From the NCBI RefSeq assembly GCF_024399475.1, contig NZ_CP101620.1, positions 1,903,608 to 1,967,607 on the forward strand: 64,000 nucleotides of DNA, written 5' to 3'. This document shows, in pieces, positions 2,886-50,764 of the stretch (position 1 is its first letter; each line of letters starts with the position of its first letter). This stretch comes from Allocoprobacillus halotolerans (lineage in GTDB: Bacteria; Bacillota_I; Bacilli_A; Erysipelotrichales; Coprobacillaceae). Under the pieces are notes generated by a model. It saw nothing but the letters and a program-made list of their open reading frames with translations, was not told where the DNA came from and ran no database searches. A program made the position numbers and the translations under genes.

Positions 2886-4819
2886 ATGAATTTATTAGAA
2901 CCTATTCAAGTAGGAAAAATCACATTAAAAAATAGAATTATGTTTCCACCGATGACAACAGGATATGAAGAAAGAGATGGAAGCATTGGAACACAAAGTT
3001 TTAATTTTTATAAAAGATTGGCTGAAGGTGGTGTCGCTTATATTGTATTAGGTGATGTTGCACCCGTGAATACTGTATCTCCAACACCAAAGCTTTTCCA
3101 TGATGGACAGATTGAAGCTTATCAAAAATTAGCTGATGCTTTACATGTATATGATTGTAAATTAGGGATTCAATTATTCCATCCAGAATATGATGTAGAT
3201 GCTTTAGCTGAACTCTTTAGAAAAGGAGATATGCAGGCTGCACGTGCAAAATTACATCATGATATGTTACATTATATTGATGAAGTGACAGAAGAACAAT
3301 TAAATACAATTTTAGAAAAAATGGGTGATTGCGTGAAACGTGCTTATCAGGCAGGTGTTGATGTGATTGAAGTCCATGGAGATCGTTTAGTAGGTTCTTT
3401 ATGTTCAACAATCTTAAATCACCGCAATGATCAATATGGTGGGGTTTTTGAAAATAGAATTCGTTTTGCATTAGATGTTGTGAAAACTATTAAAGAATAT
3501 GCACCAGATATTTGTATTGATTATAAATTACCAGTTGTCACAGTGAACCCAGATGGAACGCTGAGAGGAAAAGGTGGTTTATTAATTGAAGAAGCAGTGA
3601 AGTTTGCGAAAATCTTAGAAGAAGCTGGCGTTGATATGATTCATGTTGGTCAAGCCAATCATACTGGAAATATGAATGATACAATTCCTGCAATGGGAAC
3701 AACACCATATAGTTTTATGGCATCTTATACAAAACAAATTAAAGAAGCTGTAGCTATTCCAGTTTCTGCTGTTGGACGTATTATCACACCAGAAAACGGT
3801 GAAGCATTAATTGAAAATGGTGTTTGTGATATAATTGGATTAGGTCGTTCTTTATTGGCTGATCCTGATTATGTTAAAAAATTAGAAGCCGGTGAAGGTA
3901 CACGTATTCGTCATTGTATGATGTGTAATAAAGGATGTACAGATTCTATTCAAAACAGAAAATTCTTAAGCTGTGTTTTAAATGCTGAAAATGGATATGA
4001 ATATGATCGTGTTATTACACCAGCAACTGATAAGAAAAAGTTGTTGTTGTGGGTGGTGGACCAGCAGGTATGGAAGCTGCCAGAGTGGCCAAAACAAAAG
4101 GACATGATGTCGTTTTATTTGAAAAAGAAACAACTTTAGGTGGACAATTAAATATTGCGGCTGTGCCACCTAGAAAATATGAAATGAATCGTGGTATTCA
4201 TTATTTAACAAATGAAATGAAAGCATTAGATATTGATTTAAGATTAGGACAAGCAGTGTGCGCTAAATGTGTCCTTGATGAAAATCCAGATGCAGTGATT
4301 GTCGCTGTTGGAGCATTTAATGTCATTCCAAATATTCCAGGTTGTGATTTACCACATGTTTATGATGCATGGAAAGTGCTTAACCATGAACAATTACCAA
4401 GTGGAAAAGTTGTTGTTATTGGTGGTGGATTAGTTGGTGCTGAAACAGCTGAATTATTAGCTCAAATGGGAGCTGAAGTCACAATCGTTGAAATGATGGA
4501 TACAATCGCTAAAGAAGAATCTACAACAGTTCGTCCAACAATGATGGCTGATTTTGAAAAACATGGTGTGAAACAATATGTCAATACAAAAGTGACAGCT
4601 ATTACACCAACAAGTCTAGAAGCCCAAAATGAAGAAGGTCAGTTATCTATTGACTGTGATTATGTTGTCTTAGCTGTAGGTGCAAAACCAAATACTTTTG
4701 ATACATCATTATTAGAAGAAAAAGGTATCAAAGTTTATGTTGTCGGTGATTGCCATGACAAAGCAGCAGATATTAATCATGCCATTGAAGAAGGATATTT
4801 AGCTGCTAATGGTATTTAA
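2886..4819 (+). CDS. NADH:flavin oxidoreductase / enoate reductase, Old Yellow Enzyme-type with FAD domain (frameshift)
   Basis: Three-part reductase of the 2,4-dienoyl-CoA reductase/BaiCD type. It has an N-terminal FMN TIM barrel (residues 1-330), a [4Fe-4S] Cys cluster C-x2-C-x3-C-x11-C (CMMCNKGC then C), and a C-terminal FAD/NAD(P)H domain with GGGPAGMEAA and a second GGGLVGAE dinucleotide motif. Such enzymes reduce C=C bonds of enoates, dienoyl-CoAs or oxo-steroids with NAD(P)H; substrate unknown. The frame changes at the AAAAA run 4035-4039. One more A gives KKVVVVGGG and a 644-residue protein. GGAGGA precedes the ATG. It is followed 13 bp later by a paralogue. Confidence 0.85.
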
Positions 4820-4832
4820 GGAAGTGAATACA

Positions 4833-6779
4833 ATGAATCAATTTCCACATTTATTTGAACCTATTCAAATAGGAAATCAGATAGTTAAAAATAGAATTTT
4901 TATGCCTCCTTTATCAACCAATTTAGGAAATAAAGGTTATGTGACAGATGAACTTGTAGAACATTATAAAGCACGTGCAAAAGGTGGCGTTGGATTGTTT
5001 GTGACAGAAGTGGTGACAGTGGAACCAACTTATGTCTATCTACCTGGTGATATGTCTATTTATGATGATTCTTTCATTGAAGGATGGAAAAAATTAGTTG
5101 ATGGTGTCCATGAATATGGAGCAAAGATCTTACCACAGCTTTTCCATCCTGCCTATATGGCATTTCCTATTCCAGGAACACCACAATTGATTGCACCATC
5201 ACATGTTGGTCCTTATTATGCTAAAGAAGCACCTCGTCCTATCACAAAAGAAGAATTGAAAGTTATTATTCAACAATTTGCCCACGCAGCTTTAAGAGTC
5301 AAAAAAGCTGGTGGTGATGGAGTTGAAGTGCATGCAGCACACGCCCATGGATTGTTAGGTGGATTTTTATCACCACTTTATAATAAACGTACAGATGAAT
5401 ATGGTGGTAATATTGATGCCCGTTTAAAATTGACTTTAGAAGTCATTGAAGCGATTAGAGAAACATGTGGATCTGATTTTATTATTGATGTGCGTATTTC
5501 GGGAGATGAATATAGCGATGGTGGTTTGAATATCAATGATATGATTTATGTTGCTAAAAAATTGGAAGCACATGGTGTGGATATGTTGCATGTTTCTGGT
5601 GGAACAACGATTGCTAGAGGAAGTTCTATTCCTGCACCTGGAACACCAATGGGAAGTCATGCAGCTTTATCTGCTGAAATTAAGAAGTATGTATCTATTC
5701 CAGTTGCTACAGTTGGTCGTATTGTTGAACCTTGGGTAGCTGAAGAATTAATCGCTAATGGTAAGGCTGATGCTTGTATGATGGGACGTGCCAACCTTTG
5801 TGATCCAGAATTTGCAAATAAGGCGAAAGCTGGAGAAGTGGAAGATATTCGCCCATGTATTGGCTGTCTACGTTGTTTAAATGGCATTATGTTTGGTAAA
5901 CCAGTTGCCTGTACAATGAATCCATCATTTGCTTTAGAAAACGAAGATACCATTCAACCATCTTCAGCGAAAAAGAAAGTGCTTGTGATTGGTGGTGGAC
6001 CTGCTGGTATGGAAGCTGCGTTTATTGCGAAAAAACGTGGTCATGAAGTTGTCTTATGCGAAAAAGAAGATGAACTTGGTGGCGCATTAAAAATAGCTTC
6101 TGTTCCAATTGGTAAACAAGACTTATGTCAAGTGATTAAATGGATGAAACGTCGACTTGTTCAATCAGGTGTTGATATTCGTATGCATACACCAGTGACT
6201 TTGGATATGTTACAAAACGAATTTCATGATTATGAGGTTATTGCTGCACCAGGAGCGAAACCGCTTATCATTCAACCTTTTACAACATTTAAACAATGGA
6301 TGACTGGTGATGATATATTATCTGGACGTGCTTTTCCAGGTCGTAAGCTTGTCATTATTGGTGGAGGTTCAGTGGGTTGTGAACTAGCAGATTATTTAGC
6401 GCCATTAGTCAATGACCGTTTTCCTAGAAATCGTGATATTACGATTATTGAAATGGGTCAAGAAGTGATGTTGAAAGAGTCTGGGCCAGGTCGTTCTTTA
6501 CTTGTTCAAAGATTAATGAAAAAAGGTGTCAAGATGATTGTCAATGCGAAAGTTGAAAGCGTAACAGACAATCAAATTACATATATCCAAAATCAACAAT
6601 CTTATACGATTGATGATGCTGATACGTTAGTTCTGGCCTGTGGTTATCAACCAGACGTTACTGTTGAAGAAATGTTGAAATCTGCGAATGTATCTTATCA
6701 TTTGATTGGTGATGGACATCAGGTAGGAAATATTAAAGATGCAGTGAGTGAGGGTTATGAAATTGCACGACATATATAG
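4833..6779 (+). CDS. NADH:flavin oxidoreductase / enoate reductase, second paralogue
   Basis: Intact 648-residue homologue of the preceding enzyme, with the same order: FMN barrel (active-site region EVHAAHAHGLL), Fe-S cluster, then FAD/NAD domain with GGGPAGMEAAF near residue 395 and GGGSVGCELAD near 515. The Cys spacing is C-x2-C-x2-C-x11-C (CIGCLRC then C), one residue shorter than the usual C-x2-C-x3-C seen in the neighbour. Start is ATG 4833 with AAGGAAGTGA 7 bases upstream; an upstream in-frame start at 4809 lies inside the previous gene. Probably co-transcribed with 2886-4819 and ended by the hairpin at 6779. Substrate unknown; a pair of reductases for successive C=C bonds is a reasonable guess. 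Confidence 0.87.
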   Translation: MNQFPHLFEPIQIGNQIVKNRIFMPPLSTNLGNKGYVTDELVEHYKARAKGGVGLFVTEVVTVEPTYVYLPGDMSIYDDSFIEGWKKLVDGVHEYGAKILPQLFHPAYMAFPIPGTPQLIAPSHVGPYYAKEAPRPITKEELKVIIQQFAHAALRVKKAGGDGVEVHAAHAHGLLGGFLSPLYNKRTDEYGGNIDARLKLTLEVIEAIRETCGSDFIIDVRISGDEYSDGGLNINDMIYVAKKLEAHGVDMLHVSGGTTIARGSSIPAPGTPMGSHAALSAEIKKYVSIPVATVGRIVEPWVAEELIANGKADACMMGRANLCDPEFANKAKAGEVEDIRPCIGCLRCLNGIMFGKPVACTMNPSFALENEDTIQPSSAKKKVLVIGGGPAGMEAAFIAKKRGHEVVLCEKEDELGGALKIASVPIGKQDLCQVIKWMKRRLVQSGVDIRMHTPVTLDMLQNEFHDYEVIAAPGAKPLIIQPFTTFKQWMTGDDILSGRAFPGRKLVIIGGGSVGCELADYLAPLVNDRFPRNRDITIIEMGQEVMLKESGPGRSLLVQRLMKKGVKMIVNAKVESVTDNQITYIQNQQSYTIDDADTLVLACGYQPDVTVEEMLKSANVSYHLIGDGHQVGNIKDAVSEGYEIARHI

Positions 6780-6806
6780 AAACTGTTTTATAGCAGTTTC
6801 TTTTTT
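6779..6806 (+). terminator. Intrinsic terminator
   Basis: GAAACTG (6779-6785) pairs with CAGTTTC (6794-6800), followed by six T. Ends the oxidoreductase pair. Confidence 0.8.
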
Positions 6807-6859
6807 CGGACATAGAATGCATTTTCAGGTGTTTATATATAAAATCCTTTTGACCCATG

Positions 6860-6895
6860 AAAACATTCGTTTTCTGATATGTTTTGTTGTATAAT
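6860..6895 (+). promoter_or_regulatory. Promoter with overlapping palindrome upstream of the RpiR-type gene
   Basis: The -10 box TATAAT is at 6890-6895. The palindrome GAAAACATTCGTTTTC (6860-6875) covers where the -35 should lie. A very similar AAAACATTGTTTT occupies the same place before the paralogous regulator at 23241, suggesting autoregulation by a shared operator. Confidence 0.5.
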
Positions 6896-6914
6896 AGAAA
6901 AAAGGGGTGAAACG

Positions 6915-7678
6915 ATGGAAATATTAATATCACGTATTTTAAAGTATTTGAATGGTTGTTTAAATGATGATTATATGTATCGTATTGGAAGTTTTGTCGT
7001 CAAACATTATCATCAAATTTGTCATTATGATTTTCAAAAGTTTATTGATGAAGTTAAATGTAGTCAAGAAGATGCTATGTCATTTTTCAAGCATCTAGGA
7101 TTACATTCCTATGAAGAATTTCATCAACAGATGAATTTAGATAAACAGCTTCGTTTAGATCAAATAGAAGCCAGAATGTTACAGACTGATGTAGAAAAGT
7201 TTTTATCTCATTTACAAATTAAAGTGGAGAAAGAGAAATTTTTAAATAATATTGATGAGATTTGTAATTTGATTTTTGAGAAAAAAGAGTAGTGATTGTT
7301 GGAGCATTATATCCTAGCTGTATTGCAGTTGATTTTCAGACGGATTTAATTACTTTAGGAAAAGAAGTTATTGAATATCATCATTTTGATGAAGAATTTG
7401 AATTTTCTGATGATGATGTCGTATTGTTTATTACAGCAACTGGACGTACGATGGAAGAAAATGCTAAAAAAATGGTGAAACAGAATTTATGTGAAGCTTA
7501 TGTTGTTTTAGTGACACAAAATAAAAAGTATATTCAATTTGAAGATGTTTGCCCTGATTATGTTGTTCATGTTTCAGGAACATTTGATGGATTAGAATTT
7601 AATTATCAAACAATGATAATTTTTGATTTATTAAGAATTCGTTATTATAAAAAATTTTATATAGAAGATGAATCATAG
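6915..7678 (+). CDS. RpiR/MurR-family regulator with SIS domain (frameshift)
   Basis: Sugar-phosphate-responsive transcription regulator: N-terminal RpiR-type helix-turn-helix (residues 1-80) and C-terminal SIS domain that binds phosphosugars (VGALYPSCIAVDFQTDL, ITATGRTMEEN). The frame breaks at the AAAAAA run 7281-7286. One more A gives KKRVVIVGA, exactly matching the intact paralogue at 23241-23993 (KNKRVIVIGA), and a 254-residue protein. Start is ATG 6915 (GGGGTGA upstream), matching the paralogue start SRILKYLNGCL. The helix-turn-helix is diverged from MurR-type sequences. The CapA-like gene starts 9 bp after its stop, so the two may be co-transcribed. Confidence 0.8.
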
Positions 7679-12218: not shown

Positions 12219-12307
12219 ATGGATCAAAAGAAAATAGGATTAACCCAAAAACAATTGGTTCAACAACTATCAGTGACAGATAAATCTGTATCCAAAAGGG
12301 AAAAGGG
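12219..12307 (+). pseudogene. XRE-family regulator, 5' fragment (split by integrative element)
   Basis: The 5' part of a helix-turn-helix regulator gene: MDQKKIG then LTQKQLVQQLSVTDKSVSKREKG, preceded by TAGGAGG. Its reading continues in frame at 20304-20821 once the interval between the two copies of AAGGGAAAAGGG (12296-12307 and 20292-20303) is removed. Compared with typical XRE proteins about twelve residues seem to be missing between KIG and LTQKQL (an in-frame gap). The joined protein is about 201 residues with a C-terminal membrane domain. Confidence 0.75.
12296..12307. repeat. Left attachment repeat (attL core)
   Basis: AAGGGAAAAGGG, identical to 20292-20303. It encodes KREKG of the split XRE-type regulator. 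Confidence 0.7.
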
Positions 12308-12467
12308 AGTTTCCCGAACAAAAGGATATTAAGGAATAACCTGTGTTTACCTGCTTGCGAATAAAAGAATAATACTATTAAGTTAGAAATACTGCATAAA
12401 TGTGCTGGTATCTCTTTTTCGTTGGCTTGAAACAACAGACTATTTCATTTCTGCTTAATTACTTTAA

Positions 12468-12549
12468 ACTTATCAGGATATGATTTGTCAAGGGCTTGTT
12501 GCGTAAGCAATGCTGAACAGCACCCTTAACAAATCATAGACGGATAAGT
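12468..12549. repeat. Structured repeat, copy 1 (three-way-junction-like)
   Basis: Outer arms are ACTTATC (12468-12474)/GATAAGT (12543-12549), TATGATTTGT (12479-12488)/ACAAATCATA (12529-12538) and AAGGG/CCCTT. They enclose two small hairpins, TTGC-GTAA-GCAA (12499-12510, a GNRA loop) and TGCT-GAAC-AGCA (12511-12522). A second copy at 13765-13820 keeps the core sequence and the pairing while changing paired bases. Confidence 0.6.
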
Positions 12550-12615
12550 AACCTTTTTGTACAAGAAAAAATAGTAATCTTAAGATTTTGAAATATTGTA
12601 GCAGATAGTGGAAAA

Positions 12616-12624
12616 TGGTATAAT
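12616..12624 (+). promoter_or_regulatory. Extended -10 promoter
   Basis: TGG-TATAAT, an extended -10 element 48 bases before the ATG at 12672; no convincing -35. Confidence 0.5.
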
Positions 12625-12671
12625 GTAAATACAGAGAAACATATAAATTGGAATTTAAGGAGAATTATTAG

Positions 12672-13103
12672 ATGAATATATCAGAAAATAAAAAGAAATT
12701 ACCGCAAGGTATCCATCAGAGTATATTTATATAATGGTTGGTCTTATTGGTATAGGATTTTTCTGTTTGCTTATTTGTTCCCTCATTGCACCGCCAGAAC
12801 AAAAGGAAGAAATCATTTCGTTAATTTTAGGAATTTTAGTTCTTTTATTGATATTGAGCATTGGATTTAAACGATATAAAATAATCCTTAGCAGAGATGA
12901 AATTATTGAAGTACCTATTCTTGGTAAAAAGAAACAGATACAATTTAAAGAAATCGAAAGTGTCAAAATTAGACGGTCTAAAGCAATTTCTATCTTTGGT
13001 AAAAAGAAAAAATATATATAGACCCTGCTGTAACAGAATATAAGCAAATTTTTTTATTTTATCTGACAAAGGATTTATCCAATCTGTGTTACCTCATTTA
13101 TAA
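12672..13103 (+). pseudogene. Small membrane protein with PH-like domain (three frameshifts)
   Basis: Following three frames gives a 144-residue protein. It has two hydrophobic segments (VGLIGIGFFCLLICSLIA and LILGILVLLLILSIGF), then a bacterial PH-like strand pattern (KIILSRDEIIEVPILGKKK, FKEIESVKIRR), ending SDKGFIQSVLPHL. Breaks lie at CC 12702-12703, AAAAAA 13007-13012 and the T run near 13051; one base inserted in each restores the frame. A GGAG site precedes ATG 12672. The number of lesions makes real decay possible, though each is a homopolymer. Function unknown; it resembles in layout the larger protein at 13920-15128, which also follows a copy of the structured repeat. Confidence 0.55.
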
Positions 13104-13128
13104 ATTTCAGGTTGTAGAGGTGATTAGA

Positions 13129-13437
13129 ATGAAGAAACTATATTGCATGAACTGTGGTACTGAAATAAAAGGCGGAATACCTAACAAATGTTCTTGTGGA
13201 GCTGAATTTGATTTAGCAGATACAAAAAAACATAAAAAAATAATTACAAGCATTATATTCTTTGTAATATTAATGTCTCCACTGATTATTCTTATTCACT
13301 TTGGCAGACAATATTTACAAGCGTCAATTATTTTATATGCTTTACTTCTGATTCTAGGTATTTTTTGGTATCGTATCGTACAAACTATTTTAGTTCGTCT
13401 TGGGTTAGTAACTATGACGAACATTGAAATTAAATAA
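13129..13437 (+). CDS. Zinc-ribbon membrane protein, function unknown
   Basis: 102-residue protein. The N-terminal Cys motif (C-x2-C, then C-x-C: YCMNCGTE and KCSCG) looks like a short zinc ribbon. Two membrane segments follow (about 40-60 and 66-82). GAGGTG precedes ATG 13129, and an in-frame GTG at 13120 overlaps that site and is less likely. It sits in the accessory part of the integrative element. I do not recognise the family beyond the zinc-ribbon/TM layout. Confidence 0.65.
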   Translation: MKKLYCMNCGTEIKGGIPNKCSCGAEFDLADTKKHKKIITSIIFFVILMSPLIILIHFGRQYLQASIILYALLLILGIFWYRIVQTILVRLGLVTMTNIEIK

Positions 13438-13671
13438 CAACAACATCTTCGCAACTCTACTGAGCAGGAAATCTGAAAAGGTCTCCTGTTTAAAATAAAA
13501 AAAGGCAATTCTTTTTTATTTTCCGATAAAAAAGATTAAAAATCTGATTATCTGCATAAACACAAGTACTTTAAGTAATAAGAATGAAAATACAAAAGAA
13601 ATTTACCACAAATTCACTACGATTGAAAGAACCTTGATACGACAAAGAAAAATTGCATAAAAAAGAAAACA

Positions 13672-13703
13672 GGCATTTCATACAAGATATGAGATGTCTT
13701 TTT
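13672..13703 (+). terminator. Intrinsic terminator (with wobble pairs)
   Basis: GGCATTTCATA (13672-13682) and TATGAGATGTC (13688-13698) pair with two G-U pairs; TTTTTG follows. Confidence 0.55.
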
Positions 13704-13753
13704 GTTGCTGTAACACAGCATAATTTGTTCTTTTTTCTGCTTGATTATCTATC

Positions 13754-13831
13754 ATTTTTTAGAGCATGAATTGTCAAGAGCTTGTTGCGTAAGCAATGCT
13801 TGCACTCTTGATAAGGCATGGGATAAAAAAT
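13754..13831. repeat. Structured repeat, copy 2
   Basis: Shares the core TTGTCAAGRGCTTGTTGCG plus TAAGCAATGCT with copy 1. Pairing is ATTTTTTA (13754-13761)/TAAAAAAT (13824-13831), CATG/CATG and TTGTCAAGAG (13771-13780)/CTCTTGATAA (13805-13814). Inner hairpins are TTGC-GTAA-GCAA (13785-13796) and TGC-TT-GCA. Relative to copy 1 a stem G-C pair is A-T, and the outer stems differ in sequence but still pair. Confidence 0.6.
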
Positions 13832-13919
13832 ATTCTGACAGATAGCAGAAAAATAATGACTGTTTAAATTCGTGATGATATAATTATAAAAAATATTTTT
13901 TATCAAAGGAGAAGATTGA

Positions 13920-15128
13920 ATGGAAAGGAAAATCATAAGAAATAAAAAATATGTGAAAATTATAGGTATTATAACTACTGTTGTATTTTCAATGATGAGT
14001 ATATTTTTTGGCATAGTAGCAGGTATGATTGCTTCAATATGTTTTTTGCCATTTGTAGCACTTGGAATAATTCTACTGATAGGATATGAAAGAGAAAAAA
14101 TTATCATAGAAGAAGATACACTGACTTTTTGCTATCCATTGAAGAAAACACGTGTAATAAAATATCATGATATTCATTGTTTGCTTTTTGTTCCATTGGG
14201 CAATAAGACATCAATGGTCTTAATTGATAATAATTACAACAGATTAAACGAATTGGACTCTACGCTGGACAACCTAGATGTTTTATTTGAGATGCTTGCA
14301 GAAAAAGGTGTCTCGATTATTGATTTTGAGGAACTTGTTGAACAAAATAAGAATGTATCAAAATATATTTCTGCTTTGAACTGGATAGAAAAAAATTATT
14401 ATAAATCTATATTTGATGAAAAGGATACGACTGAGAAACTGCAAAGAACAGTAGAAAAAGATAAAATTGAAAAAGTAAGACAAAGACTAAAGATTTTCGG
14501 CTGGGGATTCATAATCGCTGATGCTTTGGCATTTTTGTTCGGTGGCAAATCAATGTATATTATCTATATCCTTGTTATCCTATCCACCTATGCATTATAT
14601 GTATGGTATTACCCATATATTTATTTTGAAACCAAGAGTAAAAAAGTTGAAGATGTCATACTGCAATTACCTTTATTCGGTGCACTTATAGCGTCACTAT
14701 TCTGTATGTTTGTTTTTCAGATATGTGACTGTGACTTTTATGATTTATTGAAATTTATTTTTATCAGTGCGGTTATCCTATCTATCCCTTTTATCTTCAA
14801 ATCTTTAAAACTCAAGATACATCAAAGAAAAGCACGAATAATATCAGTATTATTCGCAACATTGTATATATCATTTATCATTGCCATGCCTGTCAATATT
14901 TTATTGACATTTGATAGAGCAACACATGAAGAAATCGTCGTTATTGATAAAGATATAGATACAGGAAGCAGTCTTACAGACTATGAACTGATAGCAAATT
15001 GGCGTGGAGAAAAACAGAGCTTCAATGTGTCAAAAAACGAATATTTGAAAACATCTGAGGGAGATACACGTAGGGTTTGCGTTCGTAAAAGTTTATTTGG
15101 CTTAGAGTATTATACTGTTCACGAATAG
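13920..15128 (+). CDS. Multi-pass membrane protein, function unknown
   Basis: 402 residues. Two N-terminal membrane segments (about 14-36 and 40-58) are followed by a PH-like soluble stretch (KIIIEEDTLTFCYPLKK) and a charged helical region (about 120-190). A cluster of four to five membrane segments (about 195-335) precedes a C-terminal extracytoplasmic-looking domain. Start ATG 13920 has AAGGAGAAG upstream and TATAAT at 13877-13882. It is an accessory gene of the integrative element and shares the TM-plus-PH layout with the broken gene at 12672. No enzymatic motif is visible, and I do not recognise the family. Confidence 0.7.
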   Translation: MERKIIRNKKYVKIIGIITTVVFSMMSIFFGIVAGMIASICFLPFVALGIILLIGYEREKIIIEEDTLTFCYPLKKTRVIKYHDIHCLLFVPLGNKTSMVLIDNNYNRLNELDSTLDNLDVLFEMLAEKGVSIIDFEELVEQNKNVSKYISALNWIEKNYYKSIFDEKDTTEKLQRTVEKDKIEKVRQRLKIFGWGFIIADALAFLFGGKSMYIIYILVILSTYALYVWYYPYIYFETKSKKVEDVILQLPLFGALIASLFCMFVFQICDCDFYDLLKFIFISAVILSIPFIFKSLKLKIHQRKARIISVLFATLYISFIIAMPVNILLTFDRATHEEIVVIDKDIDTGSSLTDYELIANWRGEKQSFNVSKNEYLKTSEGDTRRVCVRKSLFGLEYYTVHE

Positions 15129-15164
15129 ATTGTGTGTTTGTAATAAATTCATGTTTGAATTATG

Positions 15165-15249
15165 CAGACGGAGTGATCCAGACACGGTGGCAGGAAAATC
15201 TCTCGGATTTTTCTGCCATGTCTTGCAAGTGGCTGGTTCACTTCGTCTG
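15165..15249. repeat. Long imperfect hairpin beside the oriT-like site
   Basis: CAGACGGAGTGATCCAG (15165-15181) faces CTGGTTCACTTCGTCTG (15233-15249), 15 of 17 pairing. Inside, GGCAGGAAAATC (15189-15200) faces GATTTTTCTGCC (15206-15217). This would fold strongly as single-stranded DNA and may be a single-strand origin (sso) for the transferred strand; Tn916-like elements are known to have one. Confidence 0.5.
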
Positions 15250-15277
15250 TGAGCGAGCCATGGCGAGCGAAGATTAA

Positions 15278-15299
15278 GCCCCGTTATCTAACAAGGGGC
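15278..15299. other. Candidate origin of transfer (MOB_T nic region)
   Basis: GCCCC and GGGGC arms flank GTTATCTAACAA. From memory, the Tn916 and ICEBs1 oriT nic regions share the pattern C-rich arm, (T)ATCTAAC or CGCTAAC, G-rich arm. The relaxase encoded 1.1 kb downstream belongs to the same type, which supports the call. Confidence 0.6.
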
Positions 15300-15440
15300 G
15301 GAAAAAACAAAAGATAATGGGCATTTACAAACGTAAAACGTTGTATTTACAAGGTAAAACTGCATTTTACATGATGTGATATAAAAAGTATCTATTTCAC
15401 ATGGCAAATATATATAAACTTATCAAGGAGGATTATATAA

Positions 15441-15638
15441 ATGAATATTGCAATGATTTTAATAGGTGTTCTTATTTTTCTTTCTTTTCCATTTATTGTT
15501 TTGCAAAAAATCAAAAAAACGAAACAAGAAGATACAGACGAGGCAAAGAAAAAATTAAATTTATTTCTTATTTGCACAATTCCAGTTCCAGTAGTTGCTA
15601 TTATACTTTTCTTAATGGGATTGAAAGCATTATTATAA
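15441..15638 (+). CDS. Small two-TM membrane protein
   Basis: 65 residues with two membrane helices (about 3-24 and 45-63) joined by a charged loop (KIKKTKQEDTDEAKKK). AAGGAGG lies 11 bases before the ATG, a strong site that favours a real gene. Part of the integrative element; function unknown. Confidence 0.6.
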   Translation: MNIAMILIGVLIFLSFPFIVLQKIKKTKQEDTDEAKKKLNLFLICTIPVPVVAIILFLMGLKALL

Positions 15639-15710
15639 CTGAAAATCAATGATTTTTATAAATAGTGAAAACGGAATGCTTGAAAGAAATTTAATGAATG
15701 GGGGATAAAG

Positions 15711-16286
15711 ATGTTAATATCAAAATTTAACAATGAAGATATTGAGAATGCTATTCAAGAAATAGAAAATCGTTATGGTTTTATTTTTCCTACGGAATAT
15801 CGAATATTTTTACAAAAATATAATGGTGGAAAAACTCCTAACACAACCTTTCATCTTCAAGGAATTTCATCAGATATTCAAGCGTTTTATGGTCTTGGTA
15901 AAGCAGATATGAATTATAATATTTCAATGCTTGAAAATACACTATTGTTTTCAGATATGATTGATAACAACCTGTTTCCTATTGCAATCAATTCATTTGG
16001 AGATTATCTTTTAATCGGATTATGTGGAGATAATACAGGGAAAATATATTTTTGTTACCATGATATGTCAAAAAATGATATTGAATTATCATCAAGTTTA
16101 TCTGCCTTTTTCTCCTGTTGCAGAAGTCAAAAAATCGGGCATATCCGAACCGTAGAAGAACGAATTACTGATATGAAACGATTGGGAAAAGGACATAAAA
16201 TTACAGAAGAAAAATTGAAATGCTGGCAAAAAGAAATTGATGAGTATTCAAAAATCAAACAAGAGAAAGTTACTTTTGAAATTTAG
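15711..16286 (+). CDS. SMI1/KNR4 (SUKH) domain protein
   Basis: 191-residue protein. Its first 140 residues fit the SUKH fold: YGFIFPTEYRIFLQKYNGG near the N-terminus, then LLFSDMIDNNLFPIAINSFGDYLLIGLCGDNTGKIYF. SUKH proteins are widespread immunity proteins against secreted or contact-delivered polymorphic toxins. No toxin gene is next to it, so it is either an orphan immunity gene carried by the element or a diverged relative. The Lys-rich C-terminal 45 residues are extra. GGGGGATAAAG precedes ATG 15711, and a terminator follows at 16343. Confidence 0.75.
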   Translation: MLISKFNNEDIENAIQEIENRYGFIFPTEYRIFLQKYNGGKTPNTTFHLQGISSDIQAFYGLGKADMNYNISMLENTLLFSDMIDNNLFPIAINSFGDYLLIGLCGDNTGKIYFCYHDMSKNDIELSSSLSAFFSCCRSQKIGHIRTVEERITDMKRLGKGHKITEEKLKCWQKEIDEYSKIKQEKVTFEI

Positions 16287-16342
16287 ATGTTATGTAATAT
16301 CAAGGAAAGTGAAGTATCTGTAAATCTCATATTCATACGCAT

Positions 16343-16373
16343 AAGCAGTTAGTCTTAGGATTGACTGCTTTTT
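16343..16373 (+). terminator. Intrinsic terminator after the SUKH gene
   Basis: AAGCAGTTAGTC (16343-16354) pairs with GATTGACTGCTT (16359-16370) through two wobble pairs; T-rich tail follows. Confidence 0.65.
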
Positions 16374-16394
16374 CTATACAGATTTTTATTAACA

Positions 16395-16427
16395 GGCAAT
16401 TATCAGTAAATGGTAGTTGTCTTTTTT
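16395..16427 (+). terminator. Terminator/attenuator-like hairpin before the relaxase gene
   Basis: GGCAATTATC (16395-16404) pairs with GGTAGTTGTC (16412-16421) using G-U pairs, then six T. It ends only 5 bases before the relaxase ribosome site, so it could regulate that gene. Confidence 0.55.
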
Positions 16428-16445
16428 GATTGGAGGAATTTTAGA

Positions 16446-17659
16446 ATGAATGATAAAAACTTTATTGAAGAATTAAGGAAAAAACGTGAAAAATACGGTG
16501 TAACACAAACAAGGCTTGCGGTTGCCTGTGGTATCAGCCGTGAGTATTACAACCGCATTGAAAAAGGCAAACAGCCATTGAATGATGAATTAAAGGAAAT
16601 CATAGAAAAACAGATTGAGCGTTTCAATCCACGAGAGCCGTTATTTTTACTAATTGATTACTTTCGTGTCCGCTTCCTACTACGGACGCATTAAAGATTA
16701 TTCGTGATGTATTGCAACTGAAAGCAGATTATATGCTGTATGAAGATTATGGAAAATACGGGTATGAAAGCAAATATGTGCTTGGCGACATCAATGTCAT
16801 GTGTTCCATGCAGTAACATTTAGGTGTTCTATTGGAACTAAAAGGCAAAGGCTGTCGGCAACTGGAAAGTTATCTGCTGGCACAGGAACGCTCATGGTAT
16901 GATTTTATGCATGATTGTATGACGGCTGGCGGTGTGATGAAACGGCTTGATTTGGCTATCAATGACCGAGCAGGAATATTAGATATTCCAAAGTTAAAGG
17001 AAAAATATATGGCTGGGGAATGTGTTTCCTATTTCCGTAAACAGAAAAATTATGGCAGTACAGAAAAATGCGGTGATGATATGCCAAAGAACACAGGCGA
17101 AACTTTATATCTTGGCTCAACAAGTAGCAAACTATATATGTGTGCTTATCAAAAGAACTATGAGCAGTATGTCAAGAATGGCACAGAAGTTGAAGATACC
17201 GAGATTAAGAACCGTTTTGAAATACGCATGAAGAATGAGCGAGCCTATTATGCGGTTGTAGATTTACTGACTTATCGGGACGCTGAACGTACTGCTTTTT
17301 CTATCATCAATCATTATGTCCGTTTTGTAGATAGAGAGGAAGATAAACCGAAAAGTCAATGGAAAATGAATGAAAATTGGGCGTGGTTTGTAGGGGATAA
17401 CAGAGAAACGATACGCTTAACTACAAAGCCAGAGCCTTACACCTTGCAAAAGGCATTACATTGGCTACAAAGGCAGGTTGCACCGACCATAAAAATGATA
17501 CAGGCATTAGACAGAGAAAATCATACAACGATACTGAAAGATATGATTGAGCAGGCAGAACTCAAAGATAAGCATAAACACTTATTACAATTAGAAAAAT
17601 CAACCATAGAAGAACGTATAGATACCGCTATTCCACAAGAGAATGACGGTATTTTTTAA
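16446..17659 (+). pseudogene. MobT/Tn916 ORF20-type relaxase (Rep_trans), frameshift plus stop
   Basis: Relaxase/replication-initiation-like protein that nicks oriT and pilots conjugative DNA. The restored 404-codon frame has an N-terminal XRE helix-turn-helix (YGVTQTRLAVACGISREYYN) and a Rep_trans catalytic region (LELKGKGCRQLESYLLAQ, RLDLAINDRAG, YLGSTSSKLYMCAYQK, NRFEIRMKNERAY), as in Tn916 ORF20 and ICEBs1 NicK. A one-base gap lies at TT 16674-16675, and TAA at 16814 stops the frame in MCSMQ-stop-HLGVLLELKG. The indel might be an error, but the in-frame stop suggests real loss. ATG 16446 follows TGGAGGA. Confidence 0.75.
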
Positions 17660-18654
17660 TTTCTTCAAAAAATCTGCAACAAAACAAGGTGTTTATTCCC
17701 TATATGAAGTGGAAGTTGAGAAAATCTAAACTTTTTTTGAGAAATATGACGGAAATTCATGATTAGTGGACAGTGTTATGCGAAAAGAAGAAAATCTTTT
17801 CATTCTCAACTTAACATTTGGTAGTTGCCGTTCCCTATATGGAGCAAAGAAAATCTTTCATTCCACAGTTGGCAGTTACGGCGTTGCATGGGTAGTTAGG
17901 GTGTGAAAAGAAAATCGGATTTTTTCATCATCAACTTAGCAGAATGACACTTTCTTTCCCTATATGGTACAGGATAAGAAAAAAGTTTTGAAGATTGGCT
18001 ACGCTTCTGCTCTTTTCCAATGCGGTATATAGGAAAGACGATTTTCTTCTTTCGTGTTCTTTGACAACTGAATAAAGCAGTTCAATACGTTTGACAGACA
18101 GCGAGCCGTCGAAACAGATACGCCATGACCTTTCCCCTGCAAAAGCGAGCGACAACCTATCTGTGTTCCTGTAAAAGATTTGTTCTCTTTTATCGCCATG
18201 ACCTGTCCTGTCTGATAATGATACTCCCGTACAGCCACAGCTTGAGCGTTCAGAGCGTCGCACGCAATGGGTACGGCTACATAAGAACTATGCAGAGGTG
18301 GAACTCCTGTAGGCTATGACAAAAGCCGTTGAATTACTTAGAAAAGATTTTTACAGAAAGGGGGTATGTGTTATTGCTGATATTGTAAAAACAAGGTAGG
18401 AAAAGACAAATAATAAGCGTGGCATTGGCAACAGAGGAAAAACAAAGATTGTTGTAAAAGAGCATTTTTCCGAAAAGGGAAAGACAATGGAAGAACTTCT
18501 GACGGATGTTATGCTGGAAAAAGCAAAGCAGACAATCGCATAAAATCGGTGCAGTTGTAAGAAATAGATTGAATGACAAAAAGTACCCATGTTATACTTT
18601 ACTTGCAAGCAGGTATTGTAAACACGGGTTAGTTATAAAGGAGGATAACTGACA
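17660..18654. other. About 1 kb of degenerate element DNA
   Basis: No intact gene. TTCCCTATATG or a near copy recurs about three times (near 17696, 17830 and 17959). Short coding-like scraps on the plus strand include a C-terminal piece ending at 18310 (QLERSERRTQWVRLHKNYAE) followed at once by ATG 18317 (MTKAVELLRKDFYRKG), and a tail ending at TAA 18541 (EELLTDVMLEKAKQTIA). They look like remains of small accessory ORFs upstream of the recombinase. The minus-strand ORFs here look spurious. Confidence 0.5.
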
Positions 18655-20267
18655 ATGAAACAACAGATTTACAATACTGCACTTTATCTTAGGTTAAGCC
18701 GAGATGATGAATTACAGGGCGAAAGTTCCAGCATTACCACACAAAGAAGTATGTTGTGTCTATATGCAAAAGAACATCATTTGAATGTGATTGATGAATA
18801 TATTGATGACGGCTGGTCGGGAACAAATTTTGAAAGACCGTGTTTCCAGAGAATGATTGAAGATATAGAGGCAGGAAAAATCAACTGTGTTGTAACGAAA
18901 GATCTTTCCCGACTTGGCAGAAATTATATTATGACAGGACAATATACAGAATTGTATTTTCCCAGCCATAATGTCCGTTACATAGCGATTGACGACGGTG
19001 TAGACAGCGAAAAAGGCGAAAGTGAGATTGCACCATTTAAAAATATTATCAATGAATGGGTGGCAAGAGATACAAGCCGTAAAGTGAAATCGGCATTCAA
19101 GACAAAATTTGCAGAGGGTGCATATTATGAGGCTTATGCTCCGTTAGGATATAAGAAACACCCCGACATCAAAGGAAAACTGCTGGTTGATGAGGAAACA
19201 AAATGGATTGTTGAAAAAATCTTCTCCTAGCCTATCAAGGTTATGGTAGTGCCAAAATCACAAAGGTACTGCGAGAAGAAAAAGTTCCGACAGCGTCTTG
19301 GCTGAATTTCACAAGGTACGGTACTTTTGCACATATCTTTGAGGGAAAGCCCGACAGCAAGCGTTATGAGTGGACGATTGCTCATGTTAAGGCAATTTTA
19401 AAAAGTGAAGTCTATATCGGAAACAGCGTTCATAATCGACAATCAACAGTTTCATTCAAGAGCAAGAAAAAAGTGCGTAAGCTCGAAAGTGAATGGTTTC
19501 GAGTAGAAAATACCCACGAACCGATTATTGACAAAGAAGTGTTCTATCGTGTGCCGGAACAGATAAAATCAAGGCGTAGACAGACAAAGAAAAAAGCAAC
19601 GCCAATATTTGCAGGGCTTGTCAAGTGTGCGGATTGTGGCTGGTCTATGCGGTTTGCGACAAATAAGGCAAATAAAACACCATACAGTTATTATGCTTGC
19701 AGTTACTACGGGCAGTTTGGCAAAAGTACTTGTTCTATGCACTATATCTGTTATGATGTGTTGTATCAAGCCGTATTGGAACGATTGCAGTATTGGGCTA
19801 AGGCAGTACAGCAGGACGAAGAAAAGGTGCTGAATAAGATACAAAAGGCTGGGAATGCAGAGCGAATACGAGAAAAGAAGAAAAAGGCAAGTGCTTTGAA
19901 GAAAGCCGAGAACCGTCAAAATGAGATTGACCGCTTGTTTGCGAAAATGTACGAAGATAGAGCCTGTGAGAAGATAACGGAACGAAATTTCATCATGCTG
20001 TCGGGAAAATATCAGAAAGAACAGATAGAACTGGAACAGCAGATAACCGACCTAAGAGAAGAATTAAGTAAAATGGAACAGGATATGATAGGTGCTGAAA
20101 AGTGGATTGAGTTAATCAAGGAGTATTCCGTACCAAAGGAACTGACAGCACCGTTATTAAATGCAATGATAGAAAAAATCCTTATTCACGAAGCAACAAC
20201 GAATGAGGACAATAAAAGAATACAGGAAATAGAGATATACTACCGATTTATTGGAAAAGTAGACTGA
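18655..20267 (+). CDS. Large serine recombinase, TndX/TnpX-like (frameshift)
   Basis: Site-specific integrase/excisionase of the element. The restored 537-residue protein has the resolvase catalytic domain (ALYLRLSRDDE with the nucleophile Ser, then KDLSRLGRNYIMTGQY), a recombinase domain (AYAPLGYKKHPDIKGKL to about residue 300), a zinc ribbon (CADCGWSMRF ... YACSYYG ... C) and a C-terminal coiled coil. The break near 19222-19227 ends the first part at KIFS-stop and resumes as LAYQGYGSAKITK. AAGGAGGATAACTGAC precedes ATG 18655. Location 25 bp from the right attachment repeat fits an integrase. If the lesion is real, the element is locked in place. Confidence 0.8.
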
Positions 20268-20291
20268 TAATGAGGGTTCATATCTTTAACT

Positions 20292-20303
20292 AAGGGAAAA
20301 GGG
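20292..20303. repeat. Right attachment repeat (attR core)
   Basis: AAGGGAAAAGGG, identical to 12296-12307. Immediately downstream the XRE-type reading resumes as I-H-L-P-D-A-S. Confidence 0.7.
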
Positions 20304-24863: not shown

Positions 24864-25244
24864 ATGAATATAGCATTCATTGCACATGATCGAAAAAAGG
24901 ATGAAATGATTACATTTGTTAAAGAGTATGAAGAGTTTTTAAAACATCATCAGCTTTATGCAACAGGCACAACAGGACTTAAGATTATGGAAAATACTGG
25001 ATTAAAAGTTCAATGCTTTTTATCTGGTCGTTATGGCGGCACTATACAAATGGAAGGATAAGTTGCTGAAGGAAAAATAGACATTGTTATTTTCTTCAGG
25101 GATCCTTTGACGGCTCAATCCCATGAACATGAATGCATTAATGCGTGTTTGTGATATTCACTAAATCCCTTTGGCCTCGCATATTCAAACAGCAAGGCTT
25201 ATTTTAAAATCTTTTATGCAGGAGGAAAATCAAGATGAAGTATG
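24864..25244 (+). pseudogene. mgsA: Methylglyoxal synthase, decayed
   Basis: Methylglyoxal synthase converts dihydroxyacetone phosphate to methylglyoxal. The N-terminal half is clear ([33 protein letters not shown]) but a TAA at 25060 stops it. The same frame resumes as VAEGKIDIVIFFRDPLTAQS, the frame then slips near 25131 to NALMRVCDIH, and another stop interrupts before IPLASHIQTARLILKSF. Several substitutions, two stops and an indel make this a true pseudogene. Its 3' remains overlap the ribosome site of the AIM24 gene, which probably explains why they persist. Confidence 0.8.
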
Positions 25245-32212: not shown

Positions 32213-33792
32213 TTTGACTTTCGGTTTTTTGCATTCTTTTTTGAAGGGTATGTCTTGTTGTTTATTGTCATAACCCTTGTTTTCTTATCTATATCATCTT
32301 TTTTGTTTTTGTTCTCTTTTTATTGTAGCTGAAAAAGTGTCATTTTCATGACCTTTTTTATTATTTACTATATGTTCATTTTATAGTTTCAGTTGTAGCT
32401 GCCTGTATTCCTGCTTCTCTCTTATATTTTGAAACTCCTTGATTCCCTTTTGTGCATATTTTAATATTTCCTGTATCCCTTTACTGATCTGATAGCACCA
32501 GTAATATCTCTTTCCTTTAAGCGATTTGCTTCTCTCTATCATCTTTATGACCAGTAATTTCTTGTCTACTTTCTCTGCCAACAGTGTTATATGCCCTATA
32601 TGCATCATCAATATCGTATTCAATACATTTATTGATTTCATTGTCCTTACTCTTATATTTTCAAAACCATACTGATTCTTTTTGAATCTGAATTTCTCCT
32701 CGATTCGCCACCTTGACATATATGCCCTCACTATCTTATGCACATCTCTTTTATTCCTGATCTCTCTATTCGTTAAAAGCATCATCGGTTTTTCTTCACT
32801 TAATCCATACACAATGACTAGATTTAATATCCTTCCCTTTTGTGATGGCAGTTCCACTCTCGTATGTGATACATAGACTTCACTGTCTTCCTTAGAAAAA
32901 TACATGTTCATCTTAATCTTGCCTTTTCTTCTTTTGGCGATTTCTCCTACTTTCTTTGGCTTCCCTTTAAACAATAATGTTCTATTTTCTTTGAGTCTGA
33001 TGATGAAATCATCTGCATTATGATTTTCATCTATGAAGTAATCATAAAATACATTGGCATCATATCCTCTGTCACATACAAATGTACATCTTTCAGGAAT
33101 GAGAGATTTGACATATTTTATGCTCTTTATTGTTTCATCGTTCATTGACTTGAATCCTTCACTTTCAGTTGAATAGATATGGCTATACAAAGATATTGGA
33201 TGATGTTGATCCTGTGTGAGGGCAGTTGCCTCACATACATGGTATCCAGGATAAATGTCATCCTTAAGTGAGGAAGCATCCCTGACCATACAAAGATCTT
33301 CAAATTTTCTTCCATATTTTTTGATGATTTCACTGTTATCAAGTAAAATGATCCTGTCTTCGCTAAGATGCTTGATAACCATATCATTATAATTGGATTT
33401 CATTTGGTTCATTGCTTCATCATCAAATTGAGCCAAATGATTGGATAATCTGTCAATTGTATAATTGAGCTTGATATTTTCATCAAGAGCTCTGGCAATA
33501 TCGCTAAGTAGAACACTTTGACTTCTTGCAAGACCAAACATCATGTCCATGACAAACTTGGCAGCAGGTTTATCAAGACTGTCTGATAATTTATTAGAAA
33601 AATTGACAATTTCTCTTTTCGTTTCATATAGATCTGTGGTAAAATAACTCATGGAAAATCCCTCCTAAATTTTGTTTATTGATCTAAAATTATTATAACA
33701 TTTAAGAGGCTGATTTTCCTTATAAATAAAGCAAAACAGGCAATTTGTGAATAACTTTTTACCTGTTTTTTATTTTTTTACCGAAACTCAAA
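32213..33792 (-). mobile_element. IS4-like insertion sequence, copy 1 (1,580 bp)
   Basis: Ends TTTGACTTTCGGT and (inverted) TTTGAGTTTCGGT, 13-bp terminal repeats differing by one base, with 8-bp duplications AAAATAAT. One transposase gene on the minus strand. Nearly identical to copies at 43796 and 53688. It lies 35 bp beyond the right end of the zinc-ribbon element, in what was the promoter side of the toxin-antitoxin pair. Confidence 0.88.
32381..33652 (-). CDS. IS4-family transposase, copy 1
   Basis: 423-residue DDE transposase. Catalytic Asp in RIILLDNSEI, Asp in FVCDRGYDANV and Glu in SRWRIEEKFRFKKNQYGF (the Y/R-E-K-type C-terminal motif of IS4 elements). Start ATG follows AGGAGGGATTTTCC. 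The start codon abuts GATTTTCC, which is complementary to GGAAAATC upstream of the promoter, so external transcripts would fold over the start region. Identical in protein sequence to copy 2; copy 3 differs by one Lys to Arg change (EGFKSMND to EGFRSMND). Confidence 0.9.
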   Translation of the reverse strand: MSYFTTDLYETKREIVNFSNKLSDSLDKPAAKFVMDMMFGLARSQSVLLSDIARALDENIKLNYTIDRLSNHLAQFDDEAMNQMKSNYNDMVIKHLSEDRIILLDNSEIIKKYGRKFEDLCMVRDASSLKDDIYPGYHVCEATALTQDQHHPISLYSHIYSTESEGFKSMNDETIKSIKYVKSLIPERCTFVCDRGYDANVFYDYFIDENHNADDFIIRLKENRTLLFKGKPKKVGEIAKRRKGKIKMNMYFSKEDSEVYVSHTRVELPSQKGRILNLVIVYGLSEEKPMMLLTNREIRNKRDVHKIVRAYMSRWRIEEKFRFKKNQYGFENIRVRTMKSINVLNTILMMHIGHITLLAEKVDKKLLVIKMIERSKSLKGKRYYWCYQISKGIQEILKYAQKGIKEFQNIREKQEYRQLQLKL

Positions 33793-43795: not shown

Positions 43796-45375
43796 TTTGA
43801 CTTTCGGTTTTTTGCATTCTTTTTTGAAGGGTATGTCTTGTTGTTTATTGTCATAACCCTTGTTTTCTTATCTATATCATCTTTTTTGTTTTTGTTCTCT
43901 TTTTATTGTAGCTGAAAAAGTGTCATTTTCATGACCTTTTTTATTATTTACTATATGTTCATTTTATAGTTTCAGTTGCAGCTGCCTGTATTCCTGCTTC
44001 TCTCTTATATTTTGAAACTCCTTGATTCCCTTTTGTGCATATTTTAATATTTCCTGTATCCCTTTACTGATCTGATAGCACCAGTAATATCTCTTTCCTT
44101 TAAGCGATTTGCTTCTCTCTATCATCTTTATGACCAGTAATTTCTTGTCTACTTTCTCTGCCAACAGTGTTATATGCCCTATATGCATCATCAATATCGT
44201 ATTCAATACATTTATTGATTTCATCGTCCTTACTCTTATATTTTCAAAACCATACTGATTCTTTTTGAATCTGAATTTCTCCTCGATTCGCCACCTTGAC
44301 ATATATGCCCTCACTATCTTATGCACATCTCTTTTATTCCTGATCTCTCTATTCGTTAAAAGCATCATCGGTTTTTCTTCACTTAATCCATACACAATGA
44401 CTAGATTTAATATCCTTCCCTTTTGTGATGGCAGTTCCACTCTCGTATGTGATACATAGACTTCACTGTCTTCCTTAGAAAAATACATGTTCATCTTAAT
44501 CTTGCCTTTTCTTCTTTTGGCGATTTCTCCTACTTTCTTTGGCTTCCCTTTAAACAATAATGTTCTATTTTCTTTGAGTCTGATGATGAAATCATCTGCA
44601 TTATGATTTTCATCTATGAAGTAATCATAAAATACATTGGCATCATATCCTCTGTCACATACAAATGTACATCTTTCAGGAATGAGAGATTTGACATATT
44701 TTATGCTCTTTATTGTTTCATCGTTCATTGACTTGAATCCTTCACTTTCAGTTGAATAGATATGGCTATACAAAGATATTGGATGATGTTGATCCTGTGT
44801 GAGGGCAGTTGCCTCACATACATGGTATCCAGGATAAATGTCATCCTTAAGTGAGGAAGCATCCCTGACCATACAAAGATCTTCAAATTTTCTTCCATAT
44901 TTTTTGATGATTTCACTGTTATCAAGTAAAATGATCCTGTCTTCGCTAAGATGCTTGATAACCATATCATTATAATTGGATTTCATTTGGTTCATTGCTT
45001 CATCATCAAATTGAGCCAAATGATTGGATAATCTGTCAATTGTATAATTGAGCTTGATATTTTCATCAAGAGCTCTGGCAATATCGCTAAGTAGAACACT
45101 TTGACTTCTTGCAAGACCAAACATCATGTCCATGACAAACTTGGCAGCAGGTTTATCAAGACTGTCTGATAATTTATTAGAAAAATTGACAATTTCTCTT
45201 TTCGTTTCATATAGATCTGTGGTAAAATAACTCATGGAAAATCCCTCCTAAATTTTGTTTATTGAGATAAAATTATTATAACATTTTAGAGGCTGATTTT
45301 CCTTATAAATAAAGCAAAACAGGCAATTTGTGAATAACTTTTTACCTGTTTTTTATTTTTTTACCGAAACTCAAA
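43796..45375 (-). mobile_element. IS4-like insertion sequence, copy 2 (1,580 bp)
   Basis: Same ends (TTTGACTTTCGGT, inverted TTTGAGTTTCGGT) and length as copies 1 and 3, with 8-bp duplications TATAATAT. Differs from copy 1 by only a few bases. Inserted in a membrane-protein gene. Confidence 0.9.
43964..45235 (-). CDS. IS4-family transposase, copy 2
   Basis: 423-residue DDE transposase identical in protein sequence to copy 1; coding differences are silent. Catalytic motifs as in copy 1 (LLDNSEI, FVCDRGYD, RWRIEEKFRFKK). Near identity among the three copies indicates recent spread in this genome. Confidence 0.9.
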   Translation of the reverse strand: MSYFTTDLYETKREIVNFSNKLSDSLDKPAAKFVMDMMFGLARSQSVLLSDIARALDENIKLNYTIDRLSNHLAQFDDEAMNQMKSNYNDMVIKHLSEDRIILLDNSEIIKKYGRKFEDLCMVRDASSLKDDIYPGYHVCEATALTQDQHHPISLYSHIYSTESEGFKSMNDETIKSIKYVKSLIPERCTFVCDRGYDANVFYDYFIDENHNADDFIIRLKENRTLLFKGKPKKVGEIAKRRKGKIKMNMYFSKEDSEVYVSHTRVELPSQKGRILNLVIVYGLSEEKPMMLLTNREIRNKRDVHKIVRAYMSRWRIEEKFRFKKNQYGFENIRVRTMKSINVLNTILMMHIGHITLLAEKVDKKLLVIKMIERSKSLKGKRYYWCYQISKGIQEILKYAQKGIKEFQNIREKQEYRQLQLKL

Positions 45376-50176: not shown

Positions 50177-50763
50177 TGCGACAGAGTCAAATCAAACGTC
50201 AAACGAATGAAACAACAATAGAAATGTCCATCAATCTTGATGGACAAGGACAAGCAACCATTGATACTGGTGTTGGTTTCATGGATCATATGTTAGAATT
50301 ATTTGCTTTTCATAGTGGTATTGATTGTACCATTACGTGTATAGGTGATTTAAAAGTAGATAGTCATCATACTGTTGAAGATTTAGGAATTGTTTTAGGT
50401 GAATGTTTAAAAGAAGCATTGGGTGATAAAAAAGGTATTTATCGTTATGGACAAATGGCAATTCCAATGGATGAAACATTAGTCACCACAACCTTGGATT
50501 TGAGCGGGCGACCTTATCTTGTTTATCAGGCCAATTTACCTTGTCAGCAGTTAGGTAATTATGAAACAGAAATGACCAAAGAGTTTTTTAAGGCTGTTAG
50601 TGATCACGCATTGATGACTCTACATATCCAACAAAACTATGGTGAAAACACACATCATATTATTGAAGCTATGTTTAAAAGTTTTGCCAGAGCTTTAAAA
50701 CAAGCTATTCGTATTGATGAAAACCATAAGGAACAGATTGTTTCTTCTAAAGGGGTTTTATAA
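50176..50763 (+). CDS. hisB: Imidazoleglycerol-phosphate dehydratase
   Basis: Sixth step of histidine synthesis. 195-residue single-function enzyme with the two His-rich metal motifs DTGVGFMDHML, DSHHTVED and EAMFKSFARALKQA. There is no phosphatase domain, so histidinol-phosphatase must be encoded elsewhere. Starts one base inside hisD's stop. Confidence 0.95.
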   Translation: MRQSQIKRQTNETTIEMSINLDGQGQATIDTGVGFMDHMLELFAFHSGIDCTITCIGDLKVDSHHTVEDLGIVLGECLKEALGDKKGIYRYGQMAIPMDETLVTTTLDLSGRPYLVYQANLPCQQLGNYETEMTKEFFKAVSDHALMTLHIQQNYGENTHHIIEAMFKSFARALKQAIRIDENHKEQIVSSKGVL

Positions 50764-50764
50764 T

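Follow-up and report, generated by a model that had tools for sequence, protein, structure and literature searches.

The window, a stretch of 64,000 nucleotides from the Allocoprobacillus halotolerans contig NZ_CP101620.1, harbors an integrative mobilizable element (IME) that sits inside an XRE-type regulator gene. The element is bounded by a 12-nt direct repeat, AAGGGAAAAGGG, at 12296-12307 and 20292-20303, and joining its flanks yields a single XRE-like regulator frame that continues through the junction and breaks once more after ~60 codons. The features of the element are listed below, with the evidence or gene content of each in parentheses.

12296-20303, + strand: integrative mobilizable element, ~8.0 kb (direct repeat, interrupted gene)
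12734-15128, + strand: upstream cargo (EbsA-like 12734-13021; 13120-13437; 402-aa ORF 13920-15128 without a Pfam match)
15165-15249, + strand: hairpin A, an outer stem around two inner hairpins, the larger at 15188-15218 and the small one at ~15219-15228 (folding, alignment)
15253-15268, + strand: hairpin B, a short stem, GC-GA-GCC-AT-GGC-GA-GC (folding, relatives)
15278-15299, + strand: IR1, the nic inverted repeat, GCCCC-GTTATCTAACAA-GGGGC (sequence, relatives)
15374-15402, + strand: IR2, putative relaxase bind site, ATGTGATATA..TATTTCACAT (inverted-repeat search, ICESt3 comparison)
15441-16286, + strand: cargo between oriT and relaxase (65-aa ORF 15441-15638; SUKH/SMI1-KNR4 immunity-like gene 15711-16286)
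16446-17659, + strand: MobT (Orf20-like) relaxase gene, HTH then Rep_trans part (Pfam; frame broken as assembled)
17660-18654, + strand: conserved, mostly non-coding stretch (TTCCCTATATG repeats; pemK RNA match 18215-18312)
18655-20267, + strand: large serine recombinase gene (Resolvase, Recombinase, Zn ribbon and DUF4368 domains; the assembly has a single frameshift near 19226)

The element has its own recombinase together with a relaxase and oriT, and it lacks a conjugation apparatus, as is typical of IMEs. An earlier note on this DNA had proposed that it encodes an ORF20/NicK-type relaxase. Such a gene is indeed present (Rep_trans domain PF02486, E 3e-72), with linked HTH and Rep_trans parts downstream of the oriT, but its frame is not intact, a point on which the note was silent: as assembled, it is broken by a frameshift near 16674 and an in-frame TAA. 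Relaxase and recombinase are both frameshifted in the window copy as assembled and intact in relatives; an intact relative of the relaxase scores 581 bits against NF041493 MobT, for which the cut-off is 600. Elsewhere in the genome there is no intact MobT, all other copies being partial or interrupted by stops, and a search of the genome for Tn916 Orf16 homologues returned none, while six were found in a control genome carrying Tn916-like elements. With neither relaxase nor recombinase intact in the assembly, the element looks unable to move on its own, and any present mobilization, which the earlier note had thought possible with a helper, would need outside help. Several nearby host genes also appear split or short (the HAD hydrolase at 893-1757, 2886-4819, where two adjoining domains lie in two frames, 24864-25061, hisZ at 47294-48258 and 50714-51130), which suggests either indel errors in the assembly or broad gene decay.

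The relatives are simple in content: L010, L014 and L019 contain only cargo, oriT, relaxase and a serine recombinase of 537 aa. Their cargo varies and includes riboflavin genes, a P-type ATPase with an ArsR regulator, and dihydrofolate reductase. In L019 a riboflavin synthesis gene set (3741-7205) lies directly upstream of the oriT, and dihydrofolate reductase genes adjoin the oriT module in L005 (6003-8234, a predicted dfrF on an E. faecium plasmid) and L014 (4107-6500, a DHFR domain). Several relatives share the right end AACTAAGGGAAA, which is then followed by another target gene; in L010, L013, L014 and L019 the gene after the right end resembles, by eye, the remainder of a regulator gene. 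Judged by eye in the window and at the right ends of L007, L010, L013, L014 and L019, the serine recombinase apparently targets K-W-E-x-G codons of XRE-type regulator genes and so splits the gene. Element ends proposed for the relatives by an automatic direct-repeat search were mostly spurious and were dropped; the repeat of the window and the shared right end were kept.

A 300-nt oriT segment is letter-identical in L005, L012, L013 and L014, found on an E. faecium plasmid and in Blautia, Eubacterium ramulus and Dielma, and this identity across hosts implies recent movement. Among plasmids searched with the oriT region there was a single match, E. faecium p5_70kb, and among phages there was none. 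The identical segments, the target-site repeat and the interrupted gene bear out the suggestion of the earlier note that the element once transferred, so that past transfer is well supported by sequence comparison.

The conserved stretch of ~1 kb between relaxase and recombinase has two further features. A pemK RNA (RF02913) at 18215-18312 on the + strand exceeds the Rfam gathering score and has no evident pemK gene beside it; the same match occurs in L010 and L014, which have intact genes. The motif TTCCCTATATG(G/A) is present in three copies (17696, 17831 and 17956) that are kept in relatives and are possible binding sites or a possible single-strand origin (sso).

IR1 consists of GCCCC (15278-15282), GTTATCTAACAA (15283-15294) and GGGGC (15295-15299), as read from the window, and thus has the makeup of MOBT-type oriTs, a G/C-rich inverted repeat with CT'AA inside its loop. 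By homology with the portion of the ICESt3 work available to us (PMC9371924), the nick at CT'AA is expected between 15289 and 15290; the transferred strand is then expected to be the + strand, with the downstream, relaxase-gene side entering first. The window and 21 of the 25 loci L001-L025 contain the nic core GTTATCTAACA between C/G arms; the pattern is absent from L003, L021 and L025 and from L001, a locus that begins beyond nic. The arms are slightly longer in the family form (GCCCCC/GGGGGGC) than in the window (GCCCC/GGGGC). Twenty loci were fetched as relaxase relatives for the oriT comparison. Every one of the 44 fetched MobT genes that gave a stop-free alignment of 375 residues or more has a nic nearby; six re-fetched copies, of the window and of L002, had been set aside beforehand. 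No nic match was found in L071 and L072, whose relaxases, at 28-30% identity over 370-373 aligned residues, fall under the 375-residue limit.

The earlier note had likened these arms to the Tn916/ICEBs1 nic region and had proposed alignment to known MOB_T oriT sequences as a check. The likeness holds in the published Tn916 oriT, in a Tn916-like copy on an E. faecium plasmid (L067) and in relatives. In the published work, as far as its available text goes, the deletion of the Tn916 oriT removes CCCCCCGTATCTAACAGGGGGG, which starts 41 nt after orf21 (PMC11658703); L067 has exactly CCCCCCGTATCTAACAGGGGGG at 2478, with its FtsK-type gene, the orf21 homologue, 41 nt upstream. Tn916 thus shares with the window a nic core, TATCTAACA, in C/G arms, and an IR2-type repeat follows, ~72 nt downstream in Tn916.

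In the window, IR2 has 10-nt arms with 9/10 positions paired (one mismatch) and lies 74 nt downstream of IR1. The relaxase of ICESt3 binds and requires an IR2 located 68 bp downstream of IR1, according to the accessible text of PMC9371924. In 17/26 non-redundant regions an inverted repeat of comparable form starts 72-80 nt downstream, judged on the two best listed matches for each; this count comes from a narrower search, a broader automatic one having also picked other repeats. Shorter or lower-ranked versions are visible by eye in five further regions (L006, L008, L009, L022 and L023), and none was found in the remaining four (L004, L056, L069 and L070), an unlike repeat at +73 in L069 having been left out of the count. 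Since both known parts, IR1 and IR2, are present, the identification of the site at 15278-15299 as a MOBT-type oriT is strongly supported at the level of sequence. It probably doubles as a rolling-circle origin, and oriT and element both belong to known kinds.

Directly 5' of nic lie the two hairpins. The outer arms of hairpin A (15165-15185 and 15229-15249) are 86% complementary and enclose 85 nt in all, and its larger inner hairpin has arms (15188-15200 and 15206-15218) that are 92% complementary. On the transferred strand hairpin A would likely form an arm resembling a three-way junction. The layout of the tip varies among relatives, some having one long inner hairpin and others two, and because several have two inner hairpins, the arm amounts to a three-way junction in those. 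Hairpin B contains tandem G.A mismatches that presumably pair. In the IME family it is of GCGAGC..GCGAGC types with tandem G.A, in Tn916-like ICEs it is a longer, fully paired stem, and a simple search misses it in some regions (e.g., L002, L009, L020 and L054).

Folded as DNA, the segment 15155-15312 reaches -34.5 kcal/mol on the + strand (z -6.0) and -27.2 kcal/mol on the complement (z -3.9), and none of 200 shuffles folds as well on either strand. The two 120-nt windows that cover the hairpin rank first and second by + strand z among the 134 that tile the element. The 85-nt imperfect hairpin that the earlier note had drawn beside nic is therefore real, and it is part of the oriT. Across 14 aligned sequences, 13 of them distinct, 93.1% of the cells in the stem of hairpin A are paired and 8 of its 20 pairs have changed on both sides; the covariation score is 0.276 against 0.180 +/- 0.016 for shuffled alignments, a value that 0/500 shuffles reached, and sliding the partner strand cuts pairing to at most 40.3%.

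The same arrangement of the arm accompanies relaxases that are ~54-57% identical (including the Tn916 copy, z -9.9) and even those that are ~37-38% identical (L056 and L070). The arm keeps company with nic while the neighbours change: an FtsK-type gene lies upstream in the Tn916 copy, where hairpin A runs over the stop codon of that gene, unrelated cargo lies upstream in the IMEs, and in the window element ~1 kb of cargo separates arm and oriT from the relaxase. Of 60 nic loci, 44 have an intact relaxase, defined as 375 or more aligned residues and no stop, and in each of these the upstream fold has z of -1.9 or lower; the other 16 have no intact or complete relaxase in the locus. Values above -1 occur in L004, L024, L031 and L032, all without an intact relaxase, and these are also the four of the 26 non-redundant regions that lack a significant upstream fold. 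Because the loci are related, and some are apparently one contig fetched twice (L007/L030/L038), these counts are not independent, and the association between relaxase and fold is a tendency rather than a test.

The earlier note also held that the hairpin would fold on the transferred strand, and the strand bias of the upstream regions supports this. In 25 of 26 non-redundant regions (less than 90% mutual identity, the window itself being excluded because a relative is nearly identical to it) the transferred strand folds more stably than the complement, the exception being L055. Summed over the regions, the stability difference comes to -109.6 kcal/mol, whereas 100 dinucleotide shuffles give -41.1 +/- 8.1, a comparison that somewhat flatters the bias because the shuffles have weaker structure. 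G.T pairs account for 48 of the 823 pairs that the transferred strand forms and for 6 of the 750 formed by the complement, and the difference in fraction (0.050) exceeds the largest of 60 shuffles (0.042), an excess of ~3 sd. In a control segment of 110 nt downstream of nic there is no such bias in G.T pairs (23/605 versus 25/627), and the transferred strand is more stable in 17/26. The conserved hairpin arm on the transferred strand thus appears built to fold there. A function in duplex DNA would favour neither strand, so a preference for one strand speaks either for single-stranded transferred DNA or for a + strand RNA.

On balance, we read the locus as the oriT of a MOBT-class IME in which the arm formed by hairpins A and B most likely aids the end of the transfer cycle and does not prime the second strand. 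The MobT relaxase would bind IR2 via its N-terminal HTH and nick CT'AA within the IR1 loop, and the + strand would be led into the recipient with AACAAGGGGC first. Unwinding would reach the A+B arm last, immediately ahead of the new 3' end; once this last stretch before nic became single-stranded, the arm could fold and keep the regenerated nic and 3' end exposed and positioned for the closing reaction of the relaxase. More tentatively, at a little under even confidence, MOBT oriTs including that of Tn916 may share a third component, covarying hairpins 5' of nic that are selected for folding on the transferred strand and serve to end transfer. Ending transfer might here mean closing, protection or timing of the 3' end, and the component would be separate from nic, bind site and sso, a proposal that we hold equally tentatively.

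The earlier note had identified the hairpin as an sso, that is, a hairpin on the displaced strand that recruits RNA polymerase or primase and starts the complementary strand. The correct strand does fold strongly, and this is the strongest transferred-strand fold in the element; between relaxase and recombinase no window has a transferred-strand z below -2.5, and the 134 windows over the element offer no other strong transferred-strand fold downstream of the relaxase as an sso candidate. Plasmid ssos usually sit just 5' of the leading-strand nick, a placement that the arm fits. In L067, moreover, the DNA following the orf19 homologue (identified from gene order), the place of sso916, has a like strand-biased hairpin (z -5.6 versus -2.7), which is distinct from the still stronger oriT fold of the same locus. 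The position of the arm nevertheless does not match the ssos mapped in this superfamily, since in the accessible parts of the literature sso916 lies downstream of orf19 (PMC9154091) and sso1 of ICEBs1, which resembles pTA1060-type ssos, lies downstream of nicK (PMC4595007). Tn916 thus has both an equivalent oriT arm and a separate sso, so that its arm differs from the mapped sso; in addition, the inner loops and tips vary in sequence between relatives, and no shared priming motif is evident as a result. The identification as an sso is therefore unsupported, and we consider it unlikely, though deserving of real weight.

The strand bias would suit a structured element in a + strand transcript just as well, whether the 3' end of the upstream gene or the leader of a relaxase operon, because the + strand is also the coding strand and RNA folding would give an equal bias; every gene assigned to the element is on this strand. 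Against such a transcript stand the constancy of the arm beside nic while genes up- and downstream change, the lack of a T-run after it, and the absence of any Rfam match to it at E up to 5, which together make this reading rather improbable. The palindromes could instead act as duplex, either as protein-bound repeats or as an extruded cruciform that opens the origin. The inverted repeats are extended, and a cruciform has been suggested for IR2 of ICESt3 in the available text of PMC9371924, but the preference for one strand in 25/26 regions and the excess of G.T pairs (48 versus 6) leave this quite improbable. As for a chance hairpin, or an independent MITE/REP-like repeat that landed beside nic, L004 and L032 do carry nic without any such hairpin. 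The whole genome, however, holds only two copies, both beside nic, and the hairpin is therefore not a dispersed repeat; with the stem covariation, the conservation across families and the 0/200 shuffles that match the fold, we give this explanation next to no weight.

If the arm that we propose to aid the end of transfer is a working part of MOBT oriTs, then a piece has been missing from the picture of one of the commonest transfer systems in Firmicutes, and the oriTs of mobilizable elements would be predicted more sharply. For ICESt3, the mobilization plasmids poriT1 and poriT5 worked with segments of ~300 bp (PMC9371924); the sizes, as stated in the available text, seem to include the upstream side, and the plasmids so bear neither way on a need for it. 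The upstream arm is not described in the main text, as available to us, of PMC9371924, PMC12614216, PMC11658703, PMC9154091 and PMC7563843, the original Tn916 and ICEBs1 oriT papers lying outside this set, and we claim no priority for its description, since earlier Tn916 oriT work may cover such repeats. In the Rfam search no family covered either the hairpin or nic; a match to caiA at 15366-15443 was weak, far below the gathering score, and was dismissed.

Of the closest known systems, Tn916 was compared in sequence. Its relaxase, Orf20, is 57% identical to that of the window over the query, and strong hairpins lie directly 5' of nic with the transferred strand folding better, as in the window. 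Tn916 is, however, a self-transmissible ICE with its coupling gene just upstream, the 3' end of which overlaps hairpin A, whereas the window element carries cargo upstream, lacks a T4SS and has oriT and relaxase set ~1 kb apart by further cargo. ICESt3 (RelSt3) and ICEBs1 were compared by description: the former shares the CT'AA loop of IR1 and has IR2 at 68 bp rather than 74, with no upstream hairpins described in the available text (PMC9371924), and the latter belongs to the same CT'AA nic class but differs in its sso1 downstream of nicK, of the pTA1060-like kind (PMC4595007, available part). The MobT IMEs of streptococci are likewise mobilizable, with a MobT relaxase and no T4SS (PMC5357655). 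In the accessible part of that survey of 144 streptococcal IMEs, all single-relaxase MobT IMEs have tyrosine integrases; the window family differs in having a large serine recombinase, and its pairing of MobT with such a recombinase is absent from the survey to that extent.

Two other repeated features were observed in the window. Two similar structured repeats around GCTTGTTGCGTAAGCAATGC lie beside the cargo genes at 12480-12540 and 13750-13820, and both of their strands fold. Three nearly identical transposase-like genes of 423 aa are located at 32381-33652, 43964-45235 and 53828-55099.
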